Of a stretch of DNA of 64,000 bases, positions 11,050 to 41,345 are shown piece by piece. Every line of letters begins with the position of its first letter. Within the stretch, counting starts at the first letter, position 1. The DNA comes from Dehalococcoidia bacterium. Lineage in GTDB: Bacteria > Chloroflexota > Dehalococcoidia > SpSt-223. The DNA lies in contig JANWZD010000001.1 in NCBI GenBank assembly GCA_025054935.1, forward strand, positions 451,008 to 515,007, written 5' to 3'. The position numbers and the translations under genes are program-made. A model generated the notes under the pieces. The model was not told the origin of the DNA, did no database searches, and saw only the letters and a list, made by a program, of their open reading frames with translations.

Positions 11050-11141
11050 CGGAGCCCAGCGGACGCACGCGCCTGCTGCCGGCACGAACCCGTCCTCCGA
11101 GCGCTGGCTGTTCCGCTTCGGACACGGCGGGCTCATCCGTC

Positions 11142-11147
11142 TATACT
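11142..11147 (+). promoter_or_regulatory. leaderless-type -10 box TATACT
   Basis: TATACT, then CCGCGCC (7 nt), then the ATG at 11155. There is no Shine-Dalgarno sequence. It is back to back with the promoter at 11044-11049. Confidence 0.6.
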
Positions 11148-11154
11148 CCGCGCC

Positions 11155-12408
11155 ATGGACGTGTCACGCCCCTTCACTGCGCGGCTGAGCGCGAGGCGGT
11201 GGCCGCTCGCGCTGAGCGCCGCACTCCTCTTTCTCACCGTCTGGGCGGTCTACTGGGGGACGGCGCAGCTGCTCGAGAGAACGGGAGGCCACCCGTACGC
11301 TTACTTCCCCCAACTGGCCGAGGCCTTCCTCGCTGGCCGGCTCTGGATCGAGCCGCCGCCATGGAGGATGGACCTGACGCTCCACGATGGACGCTGGTAC
11401 GTTCCGTTCTCGCCCCTCCCTGCCCTTCTTCTCATCCCGTGGGTATCCGCCGCGGGCCGAGACGGGGTCGACACCGTGCTGTTCTCGACCTTGCTCGCCT
11501 CCGGGGCGGCGATGTTCCTCTTCCTCCTCCTCGAAGTGATGGCCCGGCAGGGATGGAGCGCGCTCGACCGACTCGACAATGCGGTCCTGACGCTGGTGTT
11601 TGCGGTCGGCAGCGTTCAGTGGGTTGTCGCCCTTTCGGGGGCGGTCTGGCATGTGAGCCAAGAGACGGGCGTCTTCTTCGCGGCGCTCGCGGCACTGCTC
11701 AGCGCGCGCGGGAGCCCGCCGTGGCTTGCCGGAGGAGCGCTCGCGCTGGCAATGCTCGCTCGTCCTCACCTCGGGCTTGGGCTCCCGCTGCTTGTGGGGT
11801 TCGCTGCTCAGCGGGAGGCCGATCGAGGCGTTGCCCTGCGCAGCCGCGCCGGCTTGGCCTTCCTTCTCCGCTGGACCGGCGCAGCGGTGATACCGCTCGC
11901 GATCGCAGCCGCCGCCTTGCTGGCGTACAACGTCGCCCGCTTCGGCTCGCCATTCGACTTCGGATATACCCGCCAGCTGCTCTACGACATCCACGCTGCC
12001 AAGCTGGCGTCATACGGATGGTTCAACCTGCGCTACGTTCCGGAGAACCTGACGGCCATGCTGCTGCTGCTCCCAAAATGGGAAGAGGGGCGCCTGCTGC
12101 CCGACTGGAACGGCATGAGCCTCCTCTTGACGACGCCGGCGCTCGCACTTCTGCCGCGTGCCCGGCGGCCGGCACCGCTCGTCCTCAGCGCGTGGCTCGC
12201 GATCCTGCTGCTCCTCCTGCCGCTCCTCACCTACTACAACACAGGATATAAGCAGTTTGGCTACCGATTCAGTCTCGACTTCATGGTGCCCGCGCTCGTG
12301 CTCCTCGCTCTTGCCGTCGGCCGACGCATCGGCCCGCTGACAGCGCTGCTGATTGGGACGGGCATCGCCGTCAACGGATGGGGGATCAGCGTAGTCTACG
12401 GGCGCTAG
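11155..12408 (+). CDS. multi-pass membrane protein of unknown activity (GT-C-like)
   Basis: The 417-residue protein has a short cytoplasmic start and about ten transmembrane helices. The segment HDGRWYVPFSPLPALL after the first helix corresponds to GDRFYLYFGPFPAILL in the gene at 13475, so the two are related and may be paralogues. The overall plan resembles GT-C membrane glycosyltransferases, but I see no diagnostic acidic pair. The ATG at 11155 sits 7 nt after a TATACT box with no ribosome site, so the message is probably leaderless. A frame running further upstream to 10795 overlaps the divergent gene and is rejected. The TAG stop shares CTAG with the convergent lipoprotein gene. Confidence 0.75.
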   Translation: MDVSRPFTARLSARRWPLALSAALLFLTVWAVYWGTAQLLERTGGHPYAYFPQLAEAFLAGRLWIEPPPWRMDLTLHDGRWYVPFSPLPALLLIPWVSAAGRDGVDTVLFSTLLASGAAMFLFLLLEVMARQGWSALDRLDNAVLTLVFAVGSVQWVVALSGAVWHVSQETGVFFAALAALLSARGSPPWLAGGALALAMLARPHLGLGLPLLVGFAAQREADRGVALRSRAGLAFLLRWTGAAVIPLAIAAAALLAYNVARFGSPFDFGYTRQLLYDIHAAKLASYGWFNLRYVPENLTAMLLLLPKWEEGRLLPDWNGMSLLLTTPALALLPRARRPAPLVLSAWLAILLLLLPLLTYYNTGYKQFGYRFSLDFMVPALVLLALAVGRRIGPLTALLIGTGIAVNGWGISVVYGR

Positions 12409-31361: not shown

Positions 31362-31631
31362 GTGGCGATCGTCTGGATCCCGGCCCACCTTCTTGAGCTG
31401 TGCGGCGGCCGCCGCCAGATTGCGGCGGCGGGCCGCACTGTCGGCGAGGTTCTGGCAGCGCTTGAGCGCGAGTGTCCTGGAGTCCAGGAGCGGCTCGCCC
31501 CGGGCGGCGCTCTCGCACCTGACCTTGCAGTCTCTGTCGATGGCGCCGTCAGCACCCTCGGCCTGCTCGAGCCAGTCACGCCCGAAAGCGAAGTCTTTTT
31601 CGTCCCCGCGCTCCAGGGCGGGGCTGCCTAG
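31362..31631 (+). CDS. MoaD/ThiS-family ubiquitin-like protein
   Basis: The 89-residue protein has the beta-grasp pattern of MoaD/ThiS sulfur carriers: VWIPAHLLELCGGRRQ, TVGEVLAALE, DLAVSVDGA and ESEVFFVPALQGG near the C terminus. Two alanines follow the Gly-Gly, whereas functional sulfur carriers end in GG; either it is trimmed, as for some ThiS/MoaD-like precursors, or it does not carry sulfur. GTG start 8 nt after the large subunit stop. Its place in the operon suggests a role in cofactor supply or sulfuration for the hydroxylase. The stop shares CTAG with the convergent gene. Confidence 0.75.
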   Translation: MAIVWIPAHLLELCGGRRQIAAAGRTVGEVLAALERECPGVQERLAPGGALAPDLAVSVDGAVSTLGLLEPVTPESEVFFVPALQGGAA

Positions 31632-33157
31632 CGCCGCTGGTAAAGCGTAAGGACGAGCCCCGCCTCAGGCGAGAGGCCGAGGAGGCGGGTTTTCAGCGCC
31701 GCCATCACCGGGTCCGGCTCCGCATAGCGGCGGGTTTCTACGGCCCAATACTGGGCGGCCAGCCACGCGTCGAGGCGCGCCTGCCAGGGTCTGCCTCCGC
31801 CGGTGGGCGCGTCGACATGCCAGAGCCGGGGCGGGGGACGCTCGGCGAACAGTGCTTCGCGCGCCGCCTCATCGGCGCAGTCGATCACCGCAAGGGGAGC
31901 GGTCAGCCGAGCAGCGTGGCGGGCCATCATCGTCTCCGGCTCCGCCAGAATGACATCCCCTTCCTCGGCCCGCGCCTCGATGAAGCGGAGCGCGGGGTCG
32001 AGCGGGAGAAAGAAGTCGGGCTGGGCGATAGTGCGGGCGTGGAAATAACTTCCCAGACTGAAGGCCGCGATCGCGACGAGGCCGGTATAGGCCAGCCGCC
32101 GCACGCTCGCCGACAGCGCGACCATGCCGGCAGCGAGGGTGAGCCCGAAGGGCGGCCATGCATAGCCGACGACTGCGCTGATACTTGGCGCTTCTGCTCG
32201 CGGGAGCACGAGGGCGGTCACTGCCGCCGTCCAAAGCACGGGCAACAGCCAGAAGATGAGGACGAACTGACGGCCCGACTTGGAAAGCCGCCGCAGGCCG
32301 ACGACCGCCAGCCAGCTGACCAGCACAAGCCCCGCAAGCCCGACCGGCTGTCCGGCAGCCAATGTTTCGCCGAGGGCGAACGCCGCCATCGGCGCGATCA
32401 GCTTATATGCGAGCGCGGCGGCTTCCGCGGCGAGGTCGCTCGACTGATCCGGAGCGAGGACGAAGGCAGGAGCACGCCACCAGAGCACGGCGCCAAGCGC
32501 TGCGAGTGCCGCGCCGCCGAGCCACAGGCGCCACGCGCGGCGGCTTGGGCGCCGCACCCAGAGAAACGCTCCTTGCGCCAGCGCCACCACGGCGAAGGCC
32601 CAACTCGTCCAGCTGAGCAGGAGCATCGCGCCGGTAAAGCCGACCACGTAGCGGGCCCGGCCTGTGGGCAGAAAGAGGTAGAACCAGATTGCCAGCATCG
32701 CGAGGAGCGTCGTGAGGGCGAGAGGCGTCGCCGTCCGGTCGTAGAAGATGAGGTAGGGCGACGTGGCGGCGAGCCAGACCGCCCAGCGGGCGAGCGCTGG
32801 CCCGCCAAGCCGACGGGCTACCGGCGCACAGAGGGCGACGACGACAACTCCTGCCGCCGCTGAGAGCCAGCGGAGCGACAGTTCGCTCAGGCCCGCGACG
32901 GCAGCAAAACCAGCGGCTGCGAAGACGCTCAACGACGAGCCGGACGCGAGGGCAGGGATCCCCTCGCTCGCCGCCGCCCACGTCGCCGCTTCCGCAGGAG
33001 CAAGCGGCGCGCTGCCAAGGGCGACGAGACGAAGCGCAGCGGCGACAAAGAGCGCGCCGAAGAGCGAGAGGTCAGGAAGGCGAAACGAGGGGGCTGGCGA
33101 CTGACCGCGGGGAGCAGTCGCCAGCGAGCGCGGCGGCGCGACCTCGTGGAGGCGCAT
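31628..33157 (-). CDS. multi-pass membrane glycosyltransferase-like protein (GT39-type plan)
   Basis: The 509-residue protein has a short basic N terminus, about eleven transmembrane helices and a soluble C-terminal domain of about 120 residues. The first external loop holds APAEAATWAAA, a weaker version of the acidic loop motif of GT39 proteins, and ATSPYLIFYDRTATP matches the conserved second-loop pattern of that group. The ATG at 33157 shares its A with the TAA of a 22-codon open frame (33157-33225) that has its own strong ribosome site, so translation is probably coupled. A GTG at 33163 is the alternative. Substrate unknown. Confidence 0.8.
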   Translation of the reverse strand: MRLHEVAPPRSLATAPRGQSPAPSFRLPDLSLFGALFVAAALRLVALGSAPLAPAEAATWAAASEGIPALASGSSLSVFAAAGFAAVAGLSELSLRWLSAAAGVVVVALCAPVARRLGGPALARWAVWLAATSPYLIFYDRTATPLALTTLLAMLAIWFYLFLPTGRARYVVGFTGAMLLLSWTSWAFAVVALAQGAFLWVRRPSRRAWRLWLGGAALAALGAVLWWRAPAFVLAPDQSSDLAAEAAALAYKLIAPMAAFALGETLAAGQPVGLAGLVLVSWLAVVGLRRLSKSGRQFVLIFWLLPVLWTAAVTALVLPRAEAPSISAVVGYAWPPFGLTLAAGMVALSASVRRLAYTGLVAIAAFSLGSYFHARTIAQPDFFLPLDPALRFIEARAEEGDVILAEPETMMARHAARLTAPLAVIDCADEAAREALFAERPPPRLWHVDAPTGGGRPWQARLDAWLAAQYWAVETRRYAEPDPVMAALKTRLLGLSPEAGLVLTLYQRR

Positions 33158-33225
33158 TAGCACTCAGACTGGAACAGCGCATCATGCCGCTTGCGGCCGT
33201 CGGGCCGACGGAGCTTCGCCTTCAT
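33157..33225 (-). CDS. 22-residue leader open frame coupled to the membrane glycosyltransferase gene
   Basis: ATG at 33225 preceded by GAGGAG with a 6-nt spacer, the best ribosome site in this area, and a TACACT box 14 nt before the ATG. The peptide begins MKAKLRRPDGRKRHD and ends ALFQSEC. Its TAA overlaps the ATG of the downstream gene (TAATG). The glycosyltransferase gene itself has no ribosome site, so ribosomes finishing this frame probably re-initiate there. The peptide is highly basic; whether it has a function beyond coupling is unknown. Confidence 0.55.
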   Translation of the reverse strand: MKAKLRRPDGRKRHDALFQSEC

Positions 33226-33239
33226 CAACGTCTCCTCTA

Positions 33240-33245
33240 AGTGTA
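33240..33245 (-). promoter_or_regulatory. -10 box TACACT for the leader peptide and membrane glycosyltransferase
   Basis: TACACT on the minus strand, about 14 nt before the leader ATG at 33225. The expected start site leaves a very short untranslated leader that contains GAGGAG. Confidence 0.5.
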
Positions 33246-33282
33246 GGCGATGCCTGCGAGGCTCTCAGTTGCTGCTGTCGGT

Positions 33283-33296: not shown

Positions 33297-34523
33297 ATGC
33301 GCATTGCCACGATCAGCTATCACGGCAGCCCGCTTGCTCCCCCTGGCGTTCCCTCGACTGGCGGCATGCAGGTGTACGTTCGCGAGTTGTCGCGGGCGCT
33401 TGCGGCGCAGGGGCATCAGGTGGATGTTTTCACCCGCAAGAGCGACCCGACTGAGCCGGCCGTTGTCGTCGATCGGCCGGGGTTCCGGGTCATCAACCTG
33501 ATTGCGGGGCCTCTCGCGCCAGTCGCAAAAAGCGAGCTGCCGTTATATCTGTGCTCGTTCGCGCGCGAGGTCCTCCGCTTCGCTGAAGCGGAAGGGCAGT
33601 CGTACGATCTGATTCACAGCCACTACTGGCTCTCAGGCCGTGTTGGCCGCGCGCTCCGTTCGCGCTGGAACGTGCCGCACGTGACGATGTTTCACACGCT
33701 TGCGGAGGTGAAGAACCGAGCGCGGATCGGCGAGCGCGAGCCGGACGAGCGGATCAGCTCGGAGCGGCTGCTGATCAGCGACGTCGATCAGATCATCGTC
33801 GCGAGCGCGCATGAGCGTCTGCAGCTGCTGCGCTTCTACGAAGCCGTTGAGGAACAGATTTCGGTCGTCCCCTGCGGGGTCGACCTTGATCATTTCCGCC
33901 CACTCCCTAAGGAGAGCGCGCGGGCTGCAGTCGGCGCTCGAGGCAGATACGTCGTGCTGTTCGTTGGCCGGATCGAGCCGCTCAAGGGGATCGACATCCT
34001 CATTCGTGCCGCAGCGGAGCTGGAAGAGCGCGACGATGTTGAGGTGATCATCGCCGGCGGCGGGTCCGATGGACACCGCGACGAACTTCGTCGCCTTCGC
34101 GCTCTCGCCGCCGAGTGCGGCATCGGCGACCAGGTCCGCTTCATCGGACCGCAGCCGCAAGACCGTCTCGTTCTCTGGTACAACGCAGCAGATATCACGG
34201 TCGTCCCGTCCTACTACGAGAGCTTCGGGCTCGTCGCCGTCGAGTCAATGGCGTGCGGCACCCCGGTCATCGCCTCGCGGGTGGGCGGGCTGACATCAAC
34301 CGTGCGAGATGGAGAGACCGGCTATCTGATCCCGTGGCGGTGCCCGGAAGCGTTCCTGGAGCGAATGGAACTGCTCCTCGGCAACGAAACACTGCGCCGC
34401 CACTTTGGCGAGGCGGCGCGCCGCAGCGTGGAGCGGTTTCGCTGGTCAGCCATCGCGGAGCAGATTGCTGCGGTCTATCGCGCGGTGGTCGCCCCCGTCG
34501 TCACTCGGGCAGCCGGGAGATGA
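33297..34523 (+). CDS. GT4 glycosyltransferase, sucrose-phosphate synthase/MshA-like
   Basis: The 408-residue GT-B enzyme begins with ISYHGSPLAPPG and GGMQVYVRELSRAL, the N-terminal signature shared by MshA, sucrose-phosphate synthases and related GT4 proteins. DLIHSHYWLSG and a donor site with VGRIEPLKGID and ESFGLVAVESMACGTP follow. Such enzymes often glycosylate a phosphorylated acceptor, whose phosphate is then removed. The next gene, overlapping by ATGA, is an HAD phosphatase-like protein, which fits such a two-step pathway; this is inference. The product could be a sugar phosphate, inositol phosphate or glycerate derivative. Confidence 0.9.
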   Translation: MRIATISYHGSPLAPPGVPSTGGMQVYVRELSRALAAQGHQVDVFTRKSDPTEPAVVVDRPGFRVINLIAGPLAPVAKSELPLYLCSFAREVLRFAEAEGQSYDLIHSHYWLSGRVGRALRSRWNVPHVTMFHTLAEVKNRARIGEREPDERISSERLLISDVDQIIVASAHERLQLLRFYEAVEEQISVVPCGVDLDHFRPLPKESARAAVGARGRYVVLFVGRIEPLKGIDILIRAAAELEERDDVEVIIAGGGSDGHRDELRRLRALAAECGIGDQVRFIGPQPQDRLVLWYNAADITVVPSYYESFGLVAVESMACGTPVIASRVGGLTSTVRDGETGYLIPWRCPEAFLERMELLLGNETLRRHFGEAARRSVERFRWSAIAEQIAAVYRAVVAPVVTRAAGR

Positions 34524-39911: not shown

Positions 39912-41345
39912 CTACCCGACCCGGATCAGCTCTTCTGCTGGCCGGACCCGCATCGGCCGGACGCGCCCGGCCAGCAGCACTGCAAGGGTCAAGGGACCGA
40001 GGCGGCCGACCAACATCGTCCCGATCACGATAAGCGTTCCCGGCGTCGAGAGCGAGGGCGTGATGCCAATCGTCTGGCCGACGCTGCCAAACGCCGAGAC
40101 CGTCTCGAAGAGTACCGCGAGAAAGGCAGCGCCCTCCACTAAGGCCAGAGCGAACGTCGCCGTAAAGACGAAGGCGACGCTCAACAGCGCGATCGAGAGC
40201 GCCCGAAACACCAACACGGTCGGCACGGTCCGTTCAAAGGCAATGACCTCCGTTGCCCCGCGCGCAGCAGCAAGGATGGCGAGGAAAACGAGGCTGAAGG
40301 TATTGATCCGGATCCCTCCGGCCGTCGACGCTGACGCCCCGCCAATGAACATCAGCGCAACTGAGAAGAATTGGGAGTCGGCCGTGAGCGCGGCGGTATC
40401 CAGCGCGCTAAACCCGGCGCTGCGCACCGTCACCGACTGGAAGAACGCGTTCAGGAGCTTCTCCGGCCAAGCGAGCGGTGCGAGCGTCGCCGGGTTGCGC
40501 CATTCGGCAAACAGGAACGTCACTGTCCCAACAAGCCAGAGAAGAACTGCGGTCACCAGCACGATTTTGCTGTCGACACTGAGACGACGAAAGCGCCGTC
40601 GCGTCGCCATCTCCTCGAGGGTGGTATAGCTGATCCCGCCCAGCATGATCAGCAGGGCGAGCGGAAGCAGAACGGCCGGATTGGTGGAATACGAGGTAAA
40701 ACTCCGAAAATCTCCCATGAGGTCAAAGCCGGCATTGTTAAACGCCGAGACGGCGTGAAACACCGCTAGCCAGATCGCTTCGCCAAGCGGCCGCTCGGCA
40801 GCAAAGCTGGCGAGAAGGACAGCTGCGCCTGCCGCCTCGATCAGCAGCATGGTCACCGCGATATTTCTTGCCAGCTGAGTGGCTTCGCCGAGGCCAACGG
40901 CACCGACAGCCTCGCGCACCACCAGCCGTTCCTGCAAAGTCAGCCGCCGGCCGAGGAGGAGGAAGGCAAGAGAGGCGCCTGTCATAAAGCCGAGCCCCCC
41001 CAGCTGGATGAGCAGCAAGATCACCGCCTGCCCAAAGGGGCTCCACGCGGTGGCGGTGTCGACAAGCACGAGGCCAGTCAGACAGACCGCTGAGGTTGCA
41101 GTGAACAGGGCGATCAGCGGCGACGACCACTCTCCTGCCGCCGACGCGATCGGCAGGCTGAGCAGCAGCGTCCCGACGATGATGGCGGCAAGAAAGGTGG
41201 CGGCGAGCAGCGCGGCGGGAGGGGGCGGCCGGCGGCGGCGACGGAGCGGCGCGACCACCACCCGCTCAGGGCGATGAACAACGCGGCGGACGAAGACATC
41301 CCCCGGGCGCCGTGGCGGCCGAGGGCGAGGAACTTCCTGCGCCAT
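39912..41345 (-). CDS. ktrB: KtrB/TrkH-type potassium transporter membrane subunit
   Basis: The 477-residue protein carries four P-loop repeats of the SKT superfamily: TATSAVCLTGLV, FHAVSAFNNAGF, FQSVTVRSAGF and FETVSAFGSVG, each with a filter glycine, around eight transmembrane helices plus the four pore helices. The first 45 residues form an Arg/Pro-rich cytoplasmic extension. The ATG at 41345 lies 7 nt after a TACACT box, so the transcript is probably leaderless; an in-frame extension to 41552 would cover that promoter and overlap the divergent MFS gene. It forms an operon with ktrA for K+ uptake. Confidence 0.93.
   Translation of the reverse strand: MAQEVPRPRPPRRPGDVFVRRVVHRPERVVVAPLRRRRRPPPPAALLAATFLAAIIVGTLLLSLPIASAAGEWSSPLIALFTATSAVCLTGLVLVDTATAWSPFGQAVILLLIQLGGLGFMTGASLAFLLLGRRLTLQERLVVREAVGAVGLGEATQLARNIAVTMLLIEAAGAAVLLASFAAERPLGEAIWLAVFHAVSAFNNAGFDLMGDFRSFTSYSTNPAVLLPLALLIMLGGISYTTLEEMATRRRFRRLSVDSKIVLVTAVLLWLVGTVTFLFAEWRNPATLAPLAWPEKLLNAFFQSVTVRSAGFSALDTAALTADSQFFSVALMFIGGASASTAGGIRINTFSLVFLAILAAARGATEVIAFERTVPTVLVFRALSIALLSVAFVFTATFALALVEGAAFLAVLFETVSAFGSVGQTIGITPSLSTPGTLIVIGTMLVGRLGPLTLAVLLAGRVRPMRVRPAEELIRVG

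Follow-up and report, generated by a model that had tools for sequence, protein, structure and literature searches.

The glycosyltransferase gene and the frame that precedes it

The window analysed here, a 64,000-nucleotide stretch of DNA from a Dehalococcoidia bacterium of the Chloroflexota, carries on its minus strand (31628..33157) a gene for a 509-aa protein that resembles PMT_2/ArnT-like membrane glycosyltransferases. Pfam places this product near PMT_2 with an E-value of 2.4e-05 and a score of 25.0 bits, just under the curated cutoff of 26.1. A divergent gene on the plus strand (33297..34523) encodes a clear GT4 glycosyltransferase by Pfam assignment and has a predicted promoter of its own, TACAAT followed after 8 nt by ATG. 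Exactly the same spacing is found in all three congeners (the window together with loci L003 and L004), and the predicted element is of a conserved leaderless type.

Read along the minus strand, the region upstream of the large gene presents TACACT (33245-33240), GAGGAG (33237-33232), the six bases ACGTTG and an ATG (33225-33223), which opens a frame of 22 codons, MKAKLRRPDGRKRHDALFQSEC, closed by a TAA at 33158-33156. This small frame (33156..33225, minus strand) ends within the start codon of the large gene, with the TAA overlapping the ATG at 33157-33155 in a TAATG junction (33155..33159). The interval 33245-33155 thus reads TACACT TAGAGGAGACGTTG ATG(33225)...TAATG, confirming the order and spacing of elements given in the original prediction. 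A TTG at 33228, immediately 5' of the small-frame ATG and in the same frame, is an alternative start.

The large gene has little room for a different beginning. Its own frame contains a TGA just upstream, followed by GTG CTA ATG, so that its start must be either GTG 33163 or ATG 33157 and cannot lie further upstream; were GTG 33163 used, the junction would be GTGCTAA with a -8 overlap. A frameshift error in the window is unlikely: for one indel to join the two frames, it would have to fall in the hexamer GTGCTA that separates the main-frame TGA from the TAA, and this hexamer contains no homopolymer. A script scan for a Shine-Dalgarno (SD) 4-mer located 3-10 nt 5' of the start of the large gene found none, which bears out the earlier claim that this gene lacks a ribosome site of its own. 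The -1 overlap at TAATG is one of the two stop/start overlaps (-1 or -4) by which translational coupling is recognized, and between neighboring genes on one strand, -4 and -1 are also the most frequent junctions in the part of the genome that was sampled (32 and 13 cases).

Orthologous loci and promoter geometry

Searches of 60 relatives, of the available genomes of the whole order and of GTDB contigs recovered only two orthologous loci, both from congeners: G002 (Dehalococcoidia bacterium KatS3mg060), with 57% identity in the glycosyltransferase, and G001 (Chloroflexi bacterium HOT.Cluster.3), with 50%. The divergent GT4 neighbor is kept in both. DNA alignment of the three congeners shows the block CCTACACT (33240..33247, minus strand), which includes TACACT, to be identical in all 8 columns, while the leaders downstream of it give no meaningful alignment. 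In the window, 14 nt separate TACACT from the ATG of the small frame. In G001, 19 nt containing AGGAGGGGAGAGG lead from TACACT to the ATG of a 14-codon frame, MAHLVARVLGRCQA, whose TGA overlaps a GTG of the glycosyltransferase gene (GTGA). In G002, only 9 nt lead from TACACT to an ATG lying in the frame of the glycosyltransferase gene itself, and there is no separate small frame, which suggests that the promoter-adjacent start in this genome serves the glycosyltransferase gene directly. The coupled layout is therefore present in two of the three genomes, with different peptides. The G001 frame is weaker evidence than that of the window, because the glycosyltransferase frame is open right through the G001 leader and the small frame there may reflect an indel artefact or go unused. 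As a side observation, a distant glycosyltransferase homolog in G019 (L005) seemingly follows a GT4-like frame, shares its strand and overlaps it at the start; the pair may form an operon there instead of a divergent arrangement.

To place these spacings in context, 384 kb of the same genome were surveyed, comprising 183 first-gene starts called with a simple codon-usage script, so that start codons are approximate. More than half of these starts (102/183) have no SD, and among the SD-less starts TANNNT is sharply concentrated 6-9 nt before the start codon (22 cases altogether), a pattern known in bacteria, some Chloroflexi included, as the signature of leaderless genes (PMC3160421). TACACT serves as the leaderless -10 in four cases of the sample, one of them the gene starting at window position 41345; together with its conservation, this marks CCTACACT as the probable -10 element of the glycosyltransferase gene. 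For the 81 SD-bearing starts, a -10 is seen only from 17 nt onward, with no case at 2-16 nt. The 14-nt spacing of the small frame consequently falls outside both the leaderless (6-9 nt) and the SD-led (17 nt or more) classes of this genome. Elsewhere in the window, at 11136-11155, the starts of a divergent gene pair are separated by only 18 bp and flank a single TATACT/AGTATA element, possibly a shared bidirectional -10.

From the position of the -10, transcription would be expected to begin 7 nt downstream, at 33233 (range about 33235-33232), yielding an RNA that starts as AGACGUUGAUG and retains just the final two bases of GAGGAG. With TACACT as the -10, the SD-like hexamer (33232..33237, minus strand) would thus straddle the transcription start and probably lie for the most part upstream of the RNA 5' end. 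Given the 14-nt distance between TACACT and ATG, the roles of TACACT as promoter and of GAGGAG as ribosome site are largely incompatible, and the description of GAGGAG as the best ribosome site in the region becomes doubtful.

The same geometry bears on the route that the original prediction had envisaged, namely that transcription starts upstream of GAGGAG and ribosomes bind there, translate the small frame and pass on to the large gene. GAGGAG at a 6-nt spacing would be a strong SD, the 3' end of the 16S rRNA carries CCTCC, so that SD pairing is possible in this organism generally, and the G001 frame, 19 nt after its -10, has a normal SD-led spacing. However, the only plausible -10 in the window is TACACT, with an expected start inside GAGGAG; a sigma-70 scan of the region returned no other promoter, and the required geometry occurs in 0 of the 81 SD-bearing starts. 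SD-led coupling in the window is accordingly regarded as improbable.

The encoded peptide and the role of chance

The original prediction had also proposed an unannotated small protein gene. Searches for relatives of the 22-residue peptide in the two congeners gave nothing significant, the best match being at chance level (E 0.3); G001 encodes an unrelated 14-residue peptide at the equivalent place and G002 none, so the peptide is not conserved in the orthologues as a functional small protein would be. Codon use is ambiguous: the small frame scores 1.85, where genes average 5.3 and other frames -5.2, and lies between coding and non-coding values. The peptide is very basic and its codons are in part gene-like, features that would suit a functional product; the run of basic residues coincides with the short GC-rich DNA palindromes CCGTCGGCCCGACGG and GCCGCAAGCGGC. 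A regulatory leader peptide acting by attenuation was considered and rejected: the folding of the leader RNA is no better than that of shuffled sequences (z 0.35), and no terminator-like site was found in the leader. Taken together, a functional small protein or regulatory leader peptide appears very unlikely, and the small-protein claim is not upheld.

Chance formation of the layout was evaluated by dinucleotide shuffling of the 82-nt leader. An ATG frame 8 or more codons long, together with an SD of 5 or more bases and an overlap of -4 or -1, arose in 0.14% of shuffles, and a start-stop overlap with any start codon in 4.8%; for the different minicistron of G001, the shuffle probability was 0.012. 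Over 183 first-gene starts, about 0.26 layouts like that of the window would be expected by chance. The layout is thus probably not a chance product, although the improbability is not overwhelming. SD-led frames of at least 8 codons that overlap the following start were found at 5 of 183 first genes and, for comparison, at 26 of the 3377 in-frame starts internal to genes (P 0.019). Coupled small frames led by a -10, loosely defined, showed no excess (7/183 against 4.9 expected, P about 0.17), so a general class of such minicistrons is not supported under that definition, and a genome-wide class of coupled frames is not established.

Several individual loci were also inspected. A match at C1:210132 was dropped as an artefact of a wrong start call. 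At C1:38140 of G000 (L049:18140), a gene of the beta-lactamase family is preceded by TACAAT, an SD and a basic 22-codon frame, MLLPARFAPRLPRSSKRRGRVP, that ends in ATGA; it was rejected as a second example, as the overlap is not kept in G002. At C1:186922 of G000, the 7-codon frame VFKKEEE begins 7 nt past a TATGAT and ends on the start of the next gene, whose SD is contained in the codons of the small frame.

These frequencies bear on an alternative explanation, in which the small frame is incidental, the glycosyltransferase gene starts directly and independently of any SD at GTG 33163 or ATG 33157, and the overlap arose by chance as the leader drifted. SD-free starts are normal in this genome, the leader is not conserved, one orthologue has no small frame, and the loosely defined class is not over-represented. 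Against it, chance would rarely produce the layouts that two of the three genomes show (0.0014 and 0.012), and an SD-less start about 77 nt into the RNA, behind an upstream start codon, is no leaderless start. Overall, we consider this explanation a serious one, albeit on the unlikely side.

Proposed initiation route and related systems

The reading that we somewhat favor joins a leaderless-type promoter, a minicistron and re-initiation on the glycosyltransferase gene. The conserved promoter CCTACACT would give rise to an RNA whose 5' leader is very short (about 8 nt) and whose first start, AUG 33225 or the UUG preceding it, would capture ribosomes and open the 22-codon minicistron. The peptide would be a by-product, and ribosomes ending at the UAA would restart on the overlapping AUG of the SD-less glycosyltransferase gene. 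The transcription start, the translation of the minicistron and the re-initiation at UAAUG are all inferred steps; the conservation of the promoter block, the overlap of the frames, the lack of an SD before the main gene and the divergence of the peptide are directly seen. This reading is consistent with the identity of CCTACACT in three genomes, with the TANNNT leaderless peak, with the low shuffle probabilities of the window and G001 layouts and with the normality of -1/-4 junctions in this genome. Counting against it are the number of genomes, three only and one of them without the small frame, a spacing that fits neither class of starts, the lack of any excess of loosely defined -10-led coupled frames and the open main frame in the G001 leader. 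As for the earlier claim that translation of the enzyme depends on the small frame, coupling is plausible and fits G001, where a different short frame ends on the start of the gene. Orthologues lacking the frame had been named in advance as evidence against the prediction, and this applies to one of the two (G002) and not to G001. The upstream alignment proposed as a check does not support the peptide, unrelated in G001 and absent from G002; what is kept is CCTACACT.

A broader interpretation, which we offer as a rather speculative idea, is that this lineage of Chloroflexota has connected a single conserved promoter with the same gene by three arrangements, namely a direct leaderless start, an SD-led minicistron and a near-leaderless minicistron. 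Minicistron coupling would then be a bridge in evolution from the one mode of initiation, leaderless or SD-led, to the other. The three closely related genomes do show different initiation regions behind one conserved promoter. The locus is also a caution that a -10 box and a Shine-Dalgarno sequence should not be taken for partners when their spacing bars a single RNA from using both. Should nothing beyond the ordinary reading hold, the practical outcome would be that one glycosyltransferase gene has its start and leader correctly annotated.

What is described here looks like an already-known kind of element, short coupled upstream ORFs, and a known way of starting translation, with no new small protein. 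Start-stop coupling is widespread (PMC6728339). At the UAAUG junction of the coat and lysis genes of phage GA, re-initiation involves about 25% of the ribosomes that arrive from upstream, and no ribosomes enter from outside (PMC9955659); the junction and the lack of an SD of its own for the downstream gene are shared with the window, whereas the upstream ORF in the phage is a full gene and here comprises 22 codons. Short upstream ORFs that only deliver ribosomes to a coupled gene have been proposed (review PMC12548453), and the short frame would have the same role here, proposed from sequence only. The 5'-terminal upstream ORFs of E. coli (PMC4965119) similarly have a first AUG near the RNA 5' end that opens a short ORF before the gene; however, the downstream gene there has a conventional leader and an SD, and here it has neither.

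The closest comparison is with the coupled leaderless small ORFs of mycobacteria, which can retain linkage while the peptide changes (Shell et al. 2015, PMC4633059). Shared features are a short unannotated first ORF at the (here predicted) RNA 5' end with its stop overlapping the next start, a genome with many leaderless starts and, perhaps, linkage that is kept while the peptide diverges. That class comprises ORFs of 5-50 residues in which linkage is conserved more than the peptide; the frame in the window has 22 residues, with an unrelated 14-residue coupled frame in G001 and none in G002. The mycobacterial ORFs have mapped transcription starts at +1 and an RTGA overlap, whereas the junction in the window is TAATG with a -1 overlap (G001 has GTGA), and a leader of about 8 nt is predicted from the DNA sequence alone. 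Start codons of that class coincide with the transcription start; here the -10 lies 14 nt from the ATG, as against 6-9 nt at leaderless starts, the 5' end being a predicted one. If true, the proposed route would add an uncultured lineage of Chloroflexota to the mycobacteria as bearers of the coupled-minicistron layout.
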